Origin: Gammaproteobacteria bacterium
GTDB taxonomy: Bacteria; Pseudomonadota; Gammaproteobacteria; HTCC5015
Reading direction: 5' to 3'
Assembly (NCBI GenBank): GCA_013817245.1
Contig: JACDDA010000007.1
Coordinates: 62,001 to 126,000, forward strand
DNA: 64,000 nucleotides
The notes below the pieces were generated by a model. The model was not told where the DNA came from, did not search any database, and worked only from the letters and a program-made list of their open reading frames with translations. The translations under genes were made by a program, and so were the position numbers. Positions 31,452 through 57,609 of this stretch are shown piece by piece (the first letter of the stretch is position 1; each line of letters starts with the position of its first letter).

Positions 31452-31485
31452 TTCATTATGCATTTATATTTCACCATACAACACA

Positions 31486-31715
31486 AAGCGTTTCGCTCGT
31501 CGCTGCGCGACTACAGCGAGTAACTTTGATTGCCATGGATGGCATGAATGCAGATTTTGCAGGAGCAAAAATCTGCTGTCGTAACAAGAAATTGAATATT
31601 CTTATAAAAGCAGAAGCGTTTCGCTTGTCGCTACGCGACTACAGCGAGTAACTTTGATTGCCATGGATGGCATGAATGCAGATTTTGTAGGAGCAAAAAT
31701 CTGCTGTCGTAACAA
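31486..31715 (+). repeat. Two tandem copies of a 102-bp hairpin module
   Basis: 31486-31587 and 31614-31715 are the same 102-base unit with few differences. Each contains a CGACTACAGCGAG terminal part, the small palindrome GCCATGGATGGC (loop ATGGAT) and a long stem (left arm 31550-31560, right arm 31565-31576 in copy 1) capped by an AGGA tetraloop. The module also occurs, reversed, within the 57 kb element. Confidence 0.9.
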
Positions 31716-31797
31716 AAAGTCACCAAACGCCGCTCTCTTGCATCCCTGCAATCGCGGCATTCGAACATCCTGTTCATCAATACTCTCCCCGATGTCT
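31706..31797 (-). repeat. Inverted copy of part of the 33 kb hairpin element
   Basis: This stretch is the reverse complement of about 33234-33325 with about one mismatch by eye. On the minus strand it gives stem-loops GAAC-AGGAT-GTTC and TTGC-AGGGAT-GCAA. Further along the minus strand are GCGAC-AAGGAC-GTCGC (31863-31878) and a 9-bp stem with an AGGAA loop (31888-31910). With the 33 kb copy it flanks about 1.4 kb in inverted orientation. Confidence 0.88.
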
Positions 31798-32193
31798 CGC
31801 TGCGCGTAAACAAACACGTGCAGTCTCCTCGTATTGCGCAACTTGTAACGGGTCGTCCCGATGCGACGTCCTTGTCGCGGCGGAACTAAAACAAACTTCC
31901 TGTTTGTTTTCCCCGACAAGTCGTGCAACACTCAGCGAGCCACGAGGGGAATGCTCCTTCGTTATTTATTGTGATTAATCAAATATCGACAAATGCGTGA
32001 ATATCACAGGAGTTACAAAACAAAGAGGAAAGCACCCCTATACAAGATAGCGACGCTAGCAACTTTCTATTACGACAAAAAGTTACTCACTGCAGTCGGG
32101 CAGCGATTGGTATAATTCTTTTCTTTGTGAAAATTTTTTACAGTATAGTTAGCAGAACGTTTTTGCTATCAAAAACATACCATGCCTTTGTGA

Positions 32194-32783: not shown

Positions 32784-33149
32784 TCAATTATCCAACGCAG
32801 CTCCCCACACTTCATAAAACTCTATCTCTTTATGTTGCTGCGCGTCCACGACATCTTTGTAAACAGCAATCGCAGTGTATTTTTTACCGTCGCTGCGTGC
32901 TTCGATCAGGACAACACTCATGAAGGCCATGCCGATAATACCATTTTCCATTTTAGCGCCGTAGGGCGCAATACGCGTAGCGCATTGCGCCCTACGTTTC
33001 TTTGTTTTCGATGCTAAGGCACATTCAGCTTTATAATTATCAAAAACTGTAATGATATTAAACCAAGGGAAAAACCCGTTATGGCACGCTGAGGCATATT
33101 TAAAGGCTAGCGGCACATGAACAGGGATGTTCATGTGAGCCGATCGCAA
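32784..33149 (-). pseudogene. Chimeric reading frame, probable gene remnant
   Basis: A 121-codon frame whose parts have different origins. Its first 25 codons or so lie in the hairpin element starting at 33075, the middle crosses the palindrome 32960-32996 (encoding RRAQCATRIAPYG), and only the last 55 codons, from Met in KMENGIIGMAFM, look like ordinary protein. The C-terminal piece may be the remains of a gene cut by repeat insertion. No homologue recognised. Confidence 0.35.
32960..32996. repeat. REP-like palindrome
   Basis: CGTAGGGCGCAAT (32960-32972) pairs with ATTGCGCCCTACG (32984-32996), with a further short inner stem ACGC/GCGC. Such GGGCGCAAT palindromes are widespread extragenic repeats in proteobacteria. 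A single copy is seen in this window. Confidence 0.8.
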
Positions 33150-33369
33150 CAGGATGTGCGTGGAGGCGACGCGTCAGCCTTTAAATATGACGAGGGAATA
33201 CGGAAATGGAATTTCATTCCATTTCCGTACGTGATATCGGGGAGAGTATTGATGAACAGGATGTTCGAATGCCGCGATTGCAGGGATGCAAGAGAGCGGC
33301 GTTTGGTGACTTTTTGTTACGACAAAAAGTCACTCGCTGTAGTCGCGTAGCGACGAGCGAAACGCTTTT
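33075..33369 (+). repeat. Modular hairpin element A with GGA-loop stem-loops
   Basis: A 295-base element sharing its ends with the 57 kb copy. Stem-loops on the plus strand: ACATGAAC-AGGGAT-GTTCATGT (33115-33136); CGCA(a)C-AGGAT-GTGCG (33145-33160); a 14-bp stem with TTC loop (33199-33229); GAAC-AGGAT-GTTC (33254-33266); TTGC-AGGGAT-GCAA (33278-33291) inside an outer GCCGC/GCGGC pair; a 12-bp stem with TACG loop (33306-33333); and a terminal GTCGC-GTA-GCGAC hairpin. Four loops carry AGGA or AGGGA, matching CsrA/RsmA sites. No protein is likely. Confidence 0.85.
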
Positions 33370-38559: not shown

Positions 38560-40539
38560 TTATTCAAAACGATAGGCAAGACTTAACCAAGTGTTGCTGC
38601 CCGTGGCGGGATAATAAGCTCCAAACGAGTTAGCATAATCGTAGTATTGTGCATTAAACAAATTATCAATGCGCAAACCCAGATTCCACTGATTGACGCT
38701 GTAGTTCAAGGTGAAATTACTCACGTTGTAACCTGATAGTGGATCTGCTGCATTATCGTTATCACCGGGCAAATATTGTTTGCCGATACGTTTAGTTTCA
38801 AACGACAGGCTAACATCCGCGAGCTGATAATTAACCGCGCCACGGATCACATTTTCGGGCACACCTGAAACATCGTTACCGGCAAATACACCTGAACGGA
38901 ATTCTGCTTTAGTTAATGTATAAGCGCCGACAAAACTCAATGCGGATGTTGCATTAACGCCAAGCTCTAAAGTGCCGCCCACACGCCGCGTTTCATCAAA
39001 GTTCACATTGGCGCCCGGAAAAAATCCACCACTGTCTGCGCTTGGGTCAAACGCAATTTCGTTTTGCAAATCTAATAAGTACGCGGATGATTTAACGTAC
39101 AGAACATCACTTTGCCATTGTGCACCTAATTCCCAGGTATCACCGGTTTGCACTTCTAAGCCATTGCTACCCAACGCCGTAAAAGCTTGTTCATCTACTT
39201 TTGCAAAACGATAGTTTTGATCAAAACGTACAAACAATTTTAAACTTTCAATGGGTCGCAACGTAGCGCCTAACGAGTAAACGGTAACACTGTCATCGTG
39301 TTTTAAACCATCGGGATAGTCAGTAGCATCGGTTAACTCATCATCGACCTTGGCAGTCCGTAAGCCCACCGTTACACCCAACATCGGCAATACAGGAATC
39401 ACCGTATTGGAATAAAGCGATTCAGTTTGTTGTTGATTGCTGCGATCAAAGTCACCAAAACTACTAGGAATAAAACTTTTATAATCCGAATCAATCCTTT
39501 CAAAACCTAAAGCACTCACCAACTCACCTGCGCTTAATTGATAACGCGCTTCAATTTGCGGATTTACTGTGTTTTGCTCGCGCAGACTATTACCTGGATC
39601 AGTAGTGCAGGAACTAAACAAAGCGCAGCCACTAAAGTTTTGCAAAAAGACTTGTTCATCTCGCGCACGTGTGACATCTAATTGCGCACGAAAATGTTCT
39701 GCAAAACCTAACCATACTTGCGCATGACCCGTATCGGTATTGCTATTAATATAATCATTTTCAAAATCTTCATAGGAAATACGCGGCGAACTTTTTGCAT
39801 CGTCTTCCGATAAAGCGCCCGCTGTTTGTTGTTTTTGTTCTGCACCTTGGTATTCCAACAAGCCACCGAATGATTCAAAGGTAAATTCATTGCGTACGCT
39901 AACAAATGTTTCATCAACTTTACTGTGCTCACGATAACCATCGGTGTGACGATCGCTTGCATTGACACGTAAACCATAAAAACCCCATTGCTGACTCGCG
40001 CCTACATCCGCTTGATAAGTGTTATAAGCACCGACACCCACTTTCGCATAAGCACGTAATGCATCAGCTTTGCGAGTAATAATGTTTATCACACCACCGA
40101 CGGCTTGATCGCCATAAACTGTACCGGCGCTGCCTTCAATAATTTCAATGCGTTCAACATCATCTAAAGCGATGGTATTTAAATCGGGTGCAGCGATGTC
40201 GGTATTGTTTAAACGTCGCCCATCAATTAAAACTAATACGTTAGAACCTGCTGATTCACCAAAACCACGCATATCAATAACCGCACCGGTGCCAGGATTA
40301 GTAACGCTAATGCCTGCACGACCTAATAATATTTGATCTAGCGTGACGGCATTGCTCGCTAAAATTGCCGCGCGATCAATGACGGTGAAACTTGCGGGTA
40401 AATAAGTGGTTGCAGATTCCGTGCGTAAAGCGCTAACAATAGTTTCCGGTAATGCACTGCTTTGCGCCCCGCAAACAGTGTTAGACGTTAACAACAATAC
40501 GGGCAATAAACATAACCCGTTTAATAAACGTTTTTTCAT
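38560..40539 (-). CDS. btuB: TonB-dependent outer-membrane receptor, BtuB-like
   Basis: A 659-residue outer-membrane receptor, most likely for cobalamin. A signal peptide (RLLNGLCLLPVLLLTSNTVCGA) precedes the TonB box (ETIVSALRTES). The plug domain (about 45-160) includes VLVLIDGRRLNN and GSAGTVYGDQAVGGVINIITRK; the rest is a 22-strand barrel ending in an aromatic residue followed by Glu (LAYRFE). Start 40539 follows AAGGGGA; the longer frame runs into the leader. The cobalamin riboswitch upstream and btuCDF nearby support the substrate. Confidence 0.93.
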   Translation of the reverse strand: MKKRLLNGLCLLPVLLLTSNTVCGAQSSALPETIVSALRTESATTYLPASFTVIDRAAILASNAVTLDQILLGRAGISVTNPGTGAVIDMRGFGESAGSNVLVLIDGRRLNNTDIAAPDLNTIALDDVERIEIIEGSAGTVYGDQAVGGVINIITRKADALRAYAKVGVGAYNTYQADVGASQQWGFYGLRVNASDRHTDGYREHSKVDETFVSVRNEFTFESFGGLLEYQGAEQKQQTAGALSEDDAKSSPRISYEDFENDYINSNTDTGHAQVWLGFAEHFRAQLDVTRARDEQVFLQNFSGCALFSSCTTDPGNSLREQNTVNPQIEARYQLSAGELVSALGFERIDSDYKSFIPSSFGDFDRSNQQQTESLYSNTVIPVLPMLGVTVGLRTAKVDDELTDATDYPDGLKHDDSVTVYSLGATLRPIESLKLFVRFDQNYRFAKVDEQAFTALGSNGLEVQTGDTWELGAQWQSDVLYVKSSAYLLDLQNEIAFDPSADSGGFFPGANVNFDETRRVGGTLELGVNATSALSFVGAYTLTKAEFRSGVFAGNDVSGVPENVIRGAVNYQLADVSLSFETKRIGKQYLPGDNDNAADPLSGYNVSNFTLNYSVNQWNLGLRIDNLFNAQYYDYANSFGAYYPATGSNTWLSLAYRFE

Positions 40540-40545
40540 GGGAAG

Positions 40546-40580
40546 ATCCCCTTGTGAACAATAATAAATATTGCGGGGAT
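40546..40580 (-). promoter_or_regulatory. Hairpin masking the btuB ribosome-binding site
   Basis: On the minus strand ATCCCC (complement of 40575-40580) can pair with GGGGAT (complement of 40546-40551), the latter being the btuB Shine-Dalgarno. This fits a riboswitch that controls translation initiation. Inferred by eye, not folded by program. Confidence 0.5.
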
Positions 40581-40641
40581 GAGTGGCGGGATAAAAAATA
40601 AAATATTCCCGCACGTGGCCCACCGCAACGTGTTTAATATT

Positions 40642-40865
40642 CACAGGCCGGTATCCGGGCTGACGGTTGAATGTTTAAACGCATGATTTAAATATGCTTT
40701 AAATATTCGGCTTCATACCTTCCCATATTATCTATTGAATGTTGAAACATTCATGTAACTAACACAGTGGTTATTTATGAAGCTATAACCGATCACCGTT
40801 GCGGGGGCAGCGTTGGTATTTCACCAAACTTCCCGTTTAACGCGTGCAATGACGAGCACCTGTAA
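40642..40865 (-). ncRNA. Cobalamin riboswitch upstream of btuB
   Basis: Read on the minus strand, the conserved pieces come in order: GGTGCTCGTC at the 5' end (40851-40860), GGTGAAATACC, the core CTGCCCCCGCAACGG (about 40796-40810), GGGAAGG, and the B12 box AGCCCGGATACCGGCCTGTG (about 40643-40662). This is the classic AdoCbl riboswitch layout. Binding of cobalamin would shut down btuB. The switch lies between btuD and btuB, so only btuB (and perhaps the adenosyltransferase) is under it directly. Confidence 0.95.
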
Positions 40866-40900
40866 ACGTGTGCGCACAGTACTTAGACTGAAGTAAAAAA

Positions 40901-57008: not shown

Positions 57009-57609
57009 ATAAGCCCTAGGTTTTAAAATCACAATCACTTCCGTATATTTCATCCTTGTTATGATGGCATGAATTTTACCCATATTTTTATCTGATGCAC
57101 CAATTTAAATAAACCGATCTTCAATTCTTTTCATAAGCAGTTCGAATAAAGTCTCATGCGCCAACACAATCTGAGAGGAATGGCTGGGGTCTTCCCGGGG
57201 GTTGCCTGTAAATATCAGGCTCTATCCAGAGTTACATTTTAATTAGCCGGCGCATGCTTTTTAACGTGTATATGAAACGAAGCGACAACGCCCGTTATGG
57301 TGTGCCGAGTTGTGTTTAAGGGGTAACGGCACATGAACAGGGATGTTCAGGTGAGCCGAGCCGCGATAGGACATCGCGTCTCGGCGACGCGTCAGCCTTT
57401 AAAGATAACGAAGAAATACTGGAATGGAATTTCATTCCATTCCAGTACGTGACATCGGGAAAGTATTTTTTGGTGACTTTTTGTTACGACCGCAGATTTT
57501 TGCTCCTGCAAAATCCGCATTCATGCCATCCATGGCAATCAAAAGTTACTCGCTGTAGTCGCGCAGCGACGAGCGAAACGCTTTTAAATGTTACAAATAA
57601 ACTAAAAAC
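57009..57609. other. Gene-free stretch with hairpin element C
   Basis: About 600 bases. The first 280 hold only the Sel1 gene promoter side and a small GCCTG/CAGGC hairpin (about 57205-57221). The rest is the 295-bp element at 57291-57585. No credible protein gene. Confidence 0.65.
57291..57585 (+). repeat. Modular hairpin element C with GGA-loop stem-loops
   Basis: Shares both ends with element A at 33075-33369. Stem-loops: GAAC-AGGGAT-GTTC (about 57340-57353), CGCGAT-AGGAC-ATCGCG (57362-57378), a 14-bp stem with TTC loop (57417-57447), and a terminal GTCGC/GCGAC hairpin. It lacks the two middle GGA hairpins of A but has the AGGA-tetraloop/ATGGAT module inserted, reversed, within the hairpin that is intact in A. 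Stem sequences differ from A with pairing kept. Confidence 0.85.

Follow-up and report, generated by a model that had tools for sequence, protein, structure and literature searches.

Element A, a hairpin-rich sequence in the 64-kb window (the whole stretch of DNA analysed here), is best explained as the decayed half of a dispersed, non-coding, MITE-like element that is presumably mobile. In its full form, this element consists of terminal inverted repeats (TIRs) around two outward-facing TwoAYGGAY units, and the reading that we favour, with modest confidence, is that these units, once transcribed, would serve as CsrA clamps. Judged from the sequences, a mobile-looking element appears to spread predicted docking sites for CsrA. 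The TwoAYGGAY RNA family and the idea that it binds CsrA were already known; its presence within a dispersed MITE-like element and the evidence for selection on its loops did not appear in the parts of the literature consulted and are reported here as new.

Architecture and dispersal of the element

The first-pass annotation had described element A as a dispersed repeat, and a search of the whole genome (G000; 2.27 Mb in 20 contigs) bore this out, with 47 BLAST pieces at about 20 sites. The best full copies (e.g., L062, L066, L070, and L073) were ~565–570 bp long; they begin with a two-hairpin TIR, followed by unit Y, a centre rich in A+T, unit X, and finally the TIR in inverted orientation. 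Units X and Y differ from each other and face outwards. Two further GGA hairpins on the outward strand (module 2) were present in some copies, and an extra pair of hairpins with the loops ATGGAT and AGGA, on the inward strand, was present in the TIR of some copies. The element is thus short (~565 bp), non-coding, repeated at ~20 sites, and bounded by TIRs of 65–90 bp, as expected of a MITE.

Three copies were found in the window (Table 1). All four short GGA-loop hairpins of element A were recovered exactly where they had first been placed, together with the two longer hairpins, the second of which lies at ~33306–33333. The 295-nt element A was predicted to fold with −129.4 kcal/mol, compared to −85.3 (sd 4.7) in shuffled sequences (z = −9.3). 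Its X hairpin 2 is one base short when compared to sister copies (GTTGCG to GTGCG), and the minimum-energy fold omits this damaged hairpin. The proposal that element A and copy B are a single element split by an insertion was rejected, because copy B possesses a right TIR, albeit degenerate, of its own.

Table 1. Coordinates of the element copies and their parts in the window.
Feature	Position	Strand	Evidence and remarks
Element A: one half of the element, with X unit, module 2, and a single TIR; left half absent	33065..33369	+	blastn against full copies
X unit of element A: outer stem around two GGA-loop hairpins (TwoAYGGAY core)	33091..33196	+	alignment of 18 copies; RF01731 score
X hairpin 1, loop AGGGAT, SELEX-core match	33114..33137	+	CACATGAACAGGGATGTTCATGTG; GGA in 18/18 copies
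X hairpin 2 (AGGAT loop), one base deleted in element A	33145..33160	+	CGCAACAGGATGTGCG; GGA in 15/18 copies, CGA in 3/18
Long near-perfect palindrome (ATTCC hairpin), without GGA loop	33199..33229	.	fold, sequence
Module 2: two further GGA-loop hairpins	33250..33304	+	33254-33266, GAACAGGATGTTC; 33278-33291, TTGCAGGGATGCAA; six G000 copies, 94-100% identity
Right TIR: A/T-stem hairpin and G+C-rich hairpin	33303..33369	+	found inverted at the far end in full elements (L070:4577-4641, for example)
Copy B: Y-type half, carrying module 2 and two copies of the TIR	31485..31962	-	Y unit 31825-31939; module 2 31725-31779
Degenerate TIR flanking copy B on its opposite side	32062..32106	+	84% over 45 bp
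Copy C: X-type half element, RF01731 above cutoff	57280..57585	+	43.5 bits, cutoff 43

Several minor features were noted around these copies. The two TIR copies of copy B are in tandem (31528–31600 and 31656–31705), with a hairpin into which the ATGGAT/AGGA hairpin pair is inserted on the inward strand; the same inserted pair was also found in L063 and in copy C. Beside the full copy at L063, a long poly-G followed by Ns and poly-C (L063:5660-5765, G000:C2:156159-156264) is an assembly artefact. A separate REP-like palindrome, TAGGGCGCAATACGCGTAGCGCATTGCGCCCTA, is located just upstream of element A (32960–32996; 86% self-complementary over 37 bp), and the open reading frames at 31602–31931 (−) and 33117–33350 (+), which lie wholly or mostly within the repeats, are probably spurious.

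No target-site duplication was recognised by inspection of the copies, and no partner transposase with the ends of the element was identified. Three genes encoding Y1 (REP-type) transposases were found in the genome (C1:425634, C2:252335, and C1:30427), and no element sequence was shared near the two of these loci that were examined. REP, BIME, and REPIN sequences are likewise palindromic intergenic repeats at the 3′ ends of genes, but they are short palindromes, in contrast to ~570 bp here, and no element copy lies beside the two Y1 loci examined in G000. Searches of plasmids and phages gave no match for the G000 element, a single IMG/VR match being judged to be due to chance, while the element of family f145 gave two short partial matches to plasmids. 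The TIR hairpin pattern had no match in the GTDB genomes searched.

TwoAYGGAY units and conservation of their loops

Both the X and the Y units match the Rfam family RF01731 (TwoAYGGAY), whose covariance model has a gathering score of 43 bits. A search of the genome with this model found 30 matching places; many other G000 copies passed the cutoff as copy C did, and sister X copies reached 48.7 bits. Element A itself scored 38.8 bits (33090–33189), under the cutoff of 43, and is an aligned homologue of passing copies. RF01731 was present in 23/370 sampled genomes of the class and in 40/397 genomes of the phylum, all but one of the latter belonging to the same class.

As in the TwoAYGGAY RNA, two adjacent hairpins with (A)NGGA loops stand within an outer stem in the X and Y alignments. 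However, TwoAYGGAY was published, as far as the consulted parts of the sources go, as an RNA motif, whereas in G000 it is carried by a dispersed element with inverted repeats and a pair of outward-facing units. The available part of its source table labels it 'probably RNA, probably not cis-regulatory' (PMC2864571), and CsrA binding was proposed by Gardner and Eldai, in the portion of the article consulted, from motif matching alone (PMC4333381). The earlier statement that no description of a repeat family of this type was known is therefore only partly correct: both the RNA family and the proposal of CsrA binding are in the literature, and comparable anonymous intergenic repeats have been reported in Pseudomonas fluorescens, whereas TwoAYGGAY as a repeat element was not found in the consulted sections of papers that name it.

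The match of X hairpin 1 (loop AGGGAT) to the CsrA SELEX core was borne out (ACAGGGATGT). The motif ACARGGATGT occurs twice in the 64-kb window (33121 and 57337) versus 0.11 expected, both times within repeat copies; the full SELEX consensus is RUACARGGAUGU (PMC7652899).

The first-pass annotation considered that loops drifting freely among genome copies would argue against CsrA. Such drift was not observed, and the CsrA reading thus passed, as far as sequence comparison can tell, a test that could have failed it. The GGA was kept in all 18 copies in X loop 1, with G, A, or T as the N of ANGGA, in 15 copies in X loop 2 (CGA in the other three), and in 13/13 copies in each of the two Y loops. 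G, A, T, or C can follow AGGA in the 13 aligned Y copies, with a shift to AGGGA in one of them. The mean minor frequency was 0.028 in the GGA columns of X versus 0.152 in other unpaired columns, and 0.013 versus 0.173 in Y. Across copies, GGA thus persists in a CsrA-type context (ANGGA or ACARGGAUGU) despite turnover of the stems and of the N of ANGGA, which at the level of sequence supports CsrA-type loops well; hairpin 2 often departs from this pattern.

The stems of the X and Y hairpins change in compensating pairs: 40 doubly changed cells were counted in Y versus 18.3 in shuffled alignments, and 19 versus 5.6 in X, and on the main measures covariation was higher than in any of the 500 shuffles or the slid controls. 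The loops nevertheless provide the stronger argument, because arm-to-arm correction of palindromes could inflate covariation. At pairs common to both strands, the asymmetry between G-U and A-C (17 versus 12 cells) was not significant. The GGA strand was the more stable RNA in 26/31 units from other genomes (25/31 after all loops were neutralised to TTAA), as well as in 18/18 X and 9/13 Y units. Copies from one genome do not count as independent samples, and selection of units by the Rfam model may favour the GGA strand.

The spacing from GGA to GGA in X is ~28 nt and falls inside the 10–63 nt range over which CsrA bridges two sites (PMC7652899). The stems of the element comprise 9–10 bp, and most SELEX winners have four or fewer contiguous pairs, shorter than these stems (PMC7652899).

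Genomic context and competing explanations

In G000, convergent genes flank 11 of the 20 sites and divergent genes flank none, compared to 12/102 and 24/102, respectively, for background gene pairs; every site therefore adjoins at least one gene 3′ end. With simple ORF calls, the sites of genome G028 were distributed similarly (8 convergent, 5 tandem, and 0 divergent), and the bias was weaker in family f143, where 2/17 sites were divergent. The dispersed non-coding intergenic repeats of P. fluorescens (R178/R200 and the MITE-like R0/R2), several of which have inverted repeats and hairpins, show, in the part of the report consulted, the same tail-to-tail bias, explained there as the least harmful location (PMC2718517), and placement alone is thus no argument for a CsrA function. 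The consulted part of that report draws no link with CsrA, and the comparison with the TwoAYGGAY elements of f145 was made by description rather than by consensus sequence.

Both genes flanking element A are transcribed antisense to its GGA strand. The absence of a clear dedicated promoter, as originally noted, was also found here, nothing promoter-like being detected in or upstream of element A within the scanned stretch, and for these two reasons element A may be silent. No sigma-70-like site was found inside the scanned copies and no conserved promoter in the centre of the element (mean identity of 69%, versus 87% in X and 82% in Y), and the search for an intrinsic terminator in a full copy was negative. 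Among the neighbours, a ParE-type toxin gene (PF05016; 31149–31451, +) ends 34 bp from copy B, and a cobalamin riboswitch (RF00174, 93 bits; 40629–40878, −) lies upstream of a TonB-receptor-like gene (38560–40644).

Nothing contradicted the earlier remark that the window contains no csrA; the genome has one csrA gene (G000:C5:219930-220085), whose product we take to resemble E. coli CsrA. No CsrB (RF00018) match was found in G000, and the RsmZ (RF00166) search gave only a sub-threshold match at G000:C1:258432 (20.9 bits), which was rejected as not credible, since it consists of a coding end and a terminator hairpin with one ANGGA. The element was thus not assigned to either sponge family by these searches. 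It shares repeated A(N)GGA hairpin loops with CsrB and RsmZ, but the latter are single dedicated sRNA genes, whereas here the hairpins are spread over ~20 sites, in half or full elements that show no visible promoter.

According to the CsrA-clamp reading that we favour, the transcript of a neighbouring gene would run into a full element from either side, and because X and Y face opposite ways, one unit is always sense in any transcript that crosses it. The paired GGA hairpins of the sense unit would then clamp a CsrA dimer onto the transcript. Each transcribed copy would act as a minor sink for CsrA and provide a 3′ end occupied by it; taken together, numerous copies could buffer the free CsrA pool.

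Alternatively, CsrA may not be involved at all, and the element may be a MITE- or terminator-like repeat in which the hairpins act solely at the DNA level or as generic 3′-end structures; the GGA loops would then go back to a recent ancestor or be recognised by a transposase in single-stranded DNA. Long TIRs and near-palindromes, a convergent placement as in P. fluorescens, the presence of three Y1 transposase genes, and the tolerated loss of GGA in hairpin 2 are all consistent with this explanation, and concerted correction between palindrome arms can mimic covariation. However, GGA persists although the neighbouring N can be any of the four bases and stems vary from one lineage to another, which indicates CsrA specificity rather than common descent; moreover, the GGA strand is the more stable RNA and the two Y1 loci examined have no element sequence beside them. 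We consider this explanation unlikely on the whole.

Two other explanations retain CsrA. It is quite improbable, in our view, that CsrA, once bound to a unit reached by read-through, favours termination or shields the 3′ end where two genes converge: CsrA does drive Rho-dependent termination at pgaA (PMC7652899), and the sites, never between divergent genes, each adjoin at least one 3′ end, but this placement bias has the simpler explanation of a least harmful location offered in the consulted part of PMC2718517, and a full copy contains no intrinsic terminator. Still less credit is given to the idea that the dispersed copies jointly titrate CsrA and replace a dedicated CsrB-like sponge RNA in this genome. 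The ~20 sites, of which full ones carry four or more GGA hairpins, and the lack of a CsrB match or a credible RsmZ match in G000 would fit such a role; yet the element has no conserved promoter, the GGA strand of element A is antisense to its neighbours, the sponge search covered, of the sponge families, CsrB and RsmZ (RsmY being another one), and RF01731 matches are absent from relatives of the same family even though these possess csrA.

Recurrence in other genomes and families

Three genomes of another family (f143), in which BLAST, not the Rfam model, identified the units, served as an independent replicate. Hairpin 1 had GGA in 35/35 units on seven different perfectly paired stems, the N of ANGGA being T in 19, G in 12, A in three, and C in one. 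In hairpin 2, GGA was found in 19 of 34 units and CGA in 15, and this hairpin is thus dispensable or decaying in f143. Paired GGA sites are therefore not always kept, hairpin 2 having lost its GGA in 3/18 X copies and 15/34 f143 units. The two-unit outward architecture with TIR hairpins is also present in f143, and opposed close pairs of RF01731 matches were found in genomes of f145 and f169.

It is possible, although we advance it only tentatively, that a lineage of transposable elements across several gammaproteobacterial families carries selected CsrA clamps, so that insertion in either orientation subjects a host transcript to CsrA and adds to a genome-wide sink. A mobile element would then rewire or buffer a global post-transcriptional regulator. 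If the RNAs bind CsrA, the orphan TwoAYGGAY motif would be explained as the cargo of a dispersed element, selfish-looking repeats could carry sites for a master regulator, and a hidden, copy-number-dependent term would be added to CsrA/RsmA titration.

The csrA gene was found in 22/23 genomes with RF01731 and in 302/347 others, a co-occurrence that has no power and is uninformative. One genome (G369) with a single RF01731 match (43.8 bits) had no csrA among the matches listed and is a possible counter-example. Finally, a homologue of module 2, whose stems have changed and whose loops read AGGGAT, ATGGAT, and AGGAT, was detected in the JALSHZ MAG (G012).
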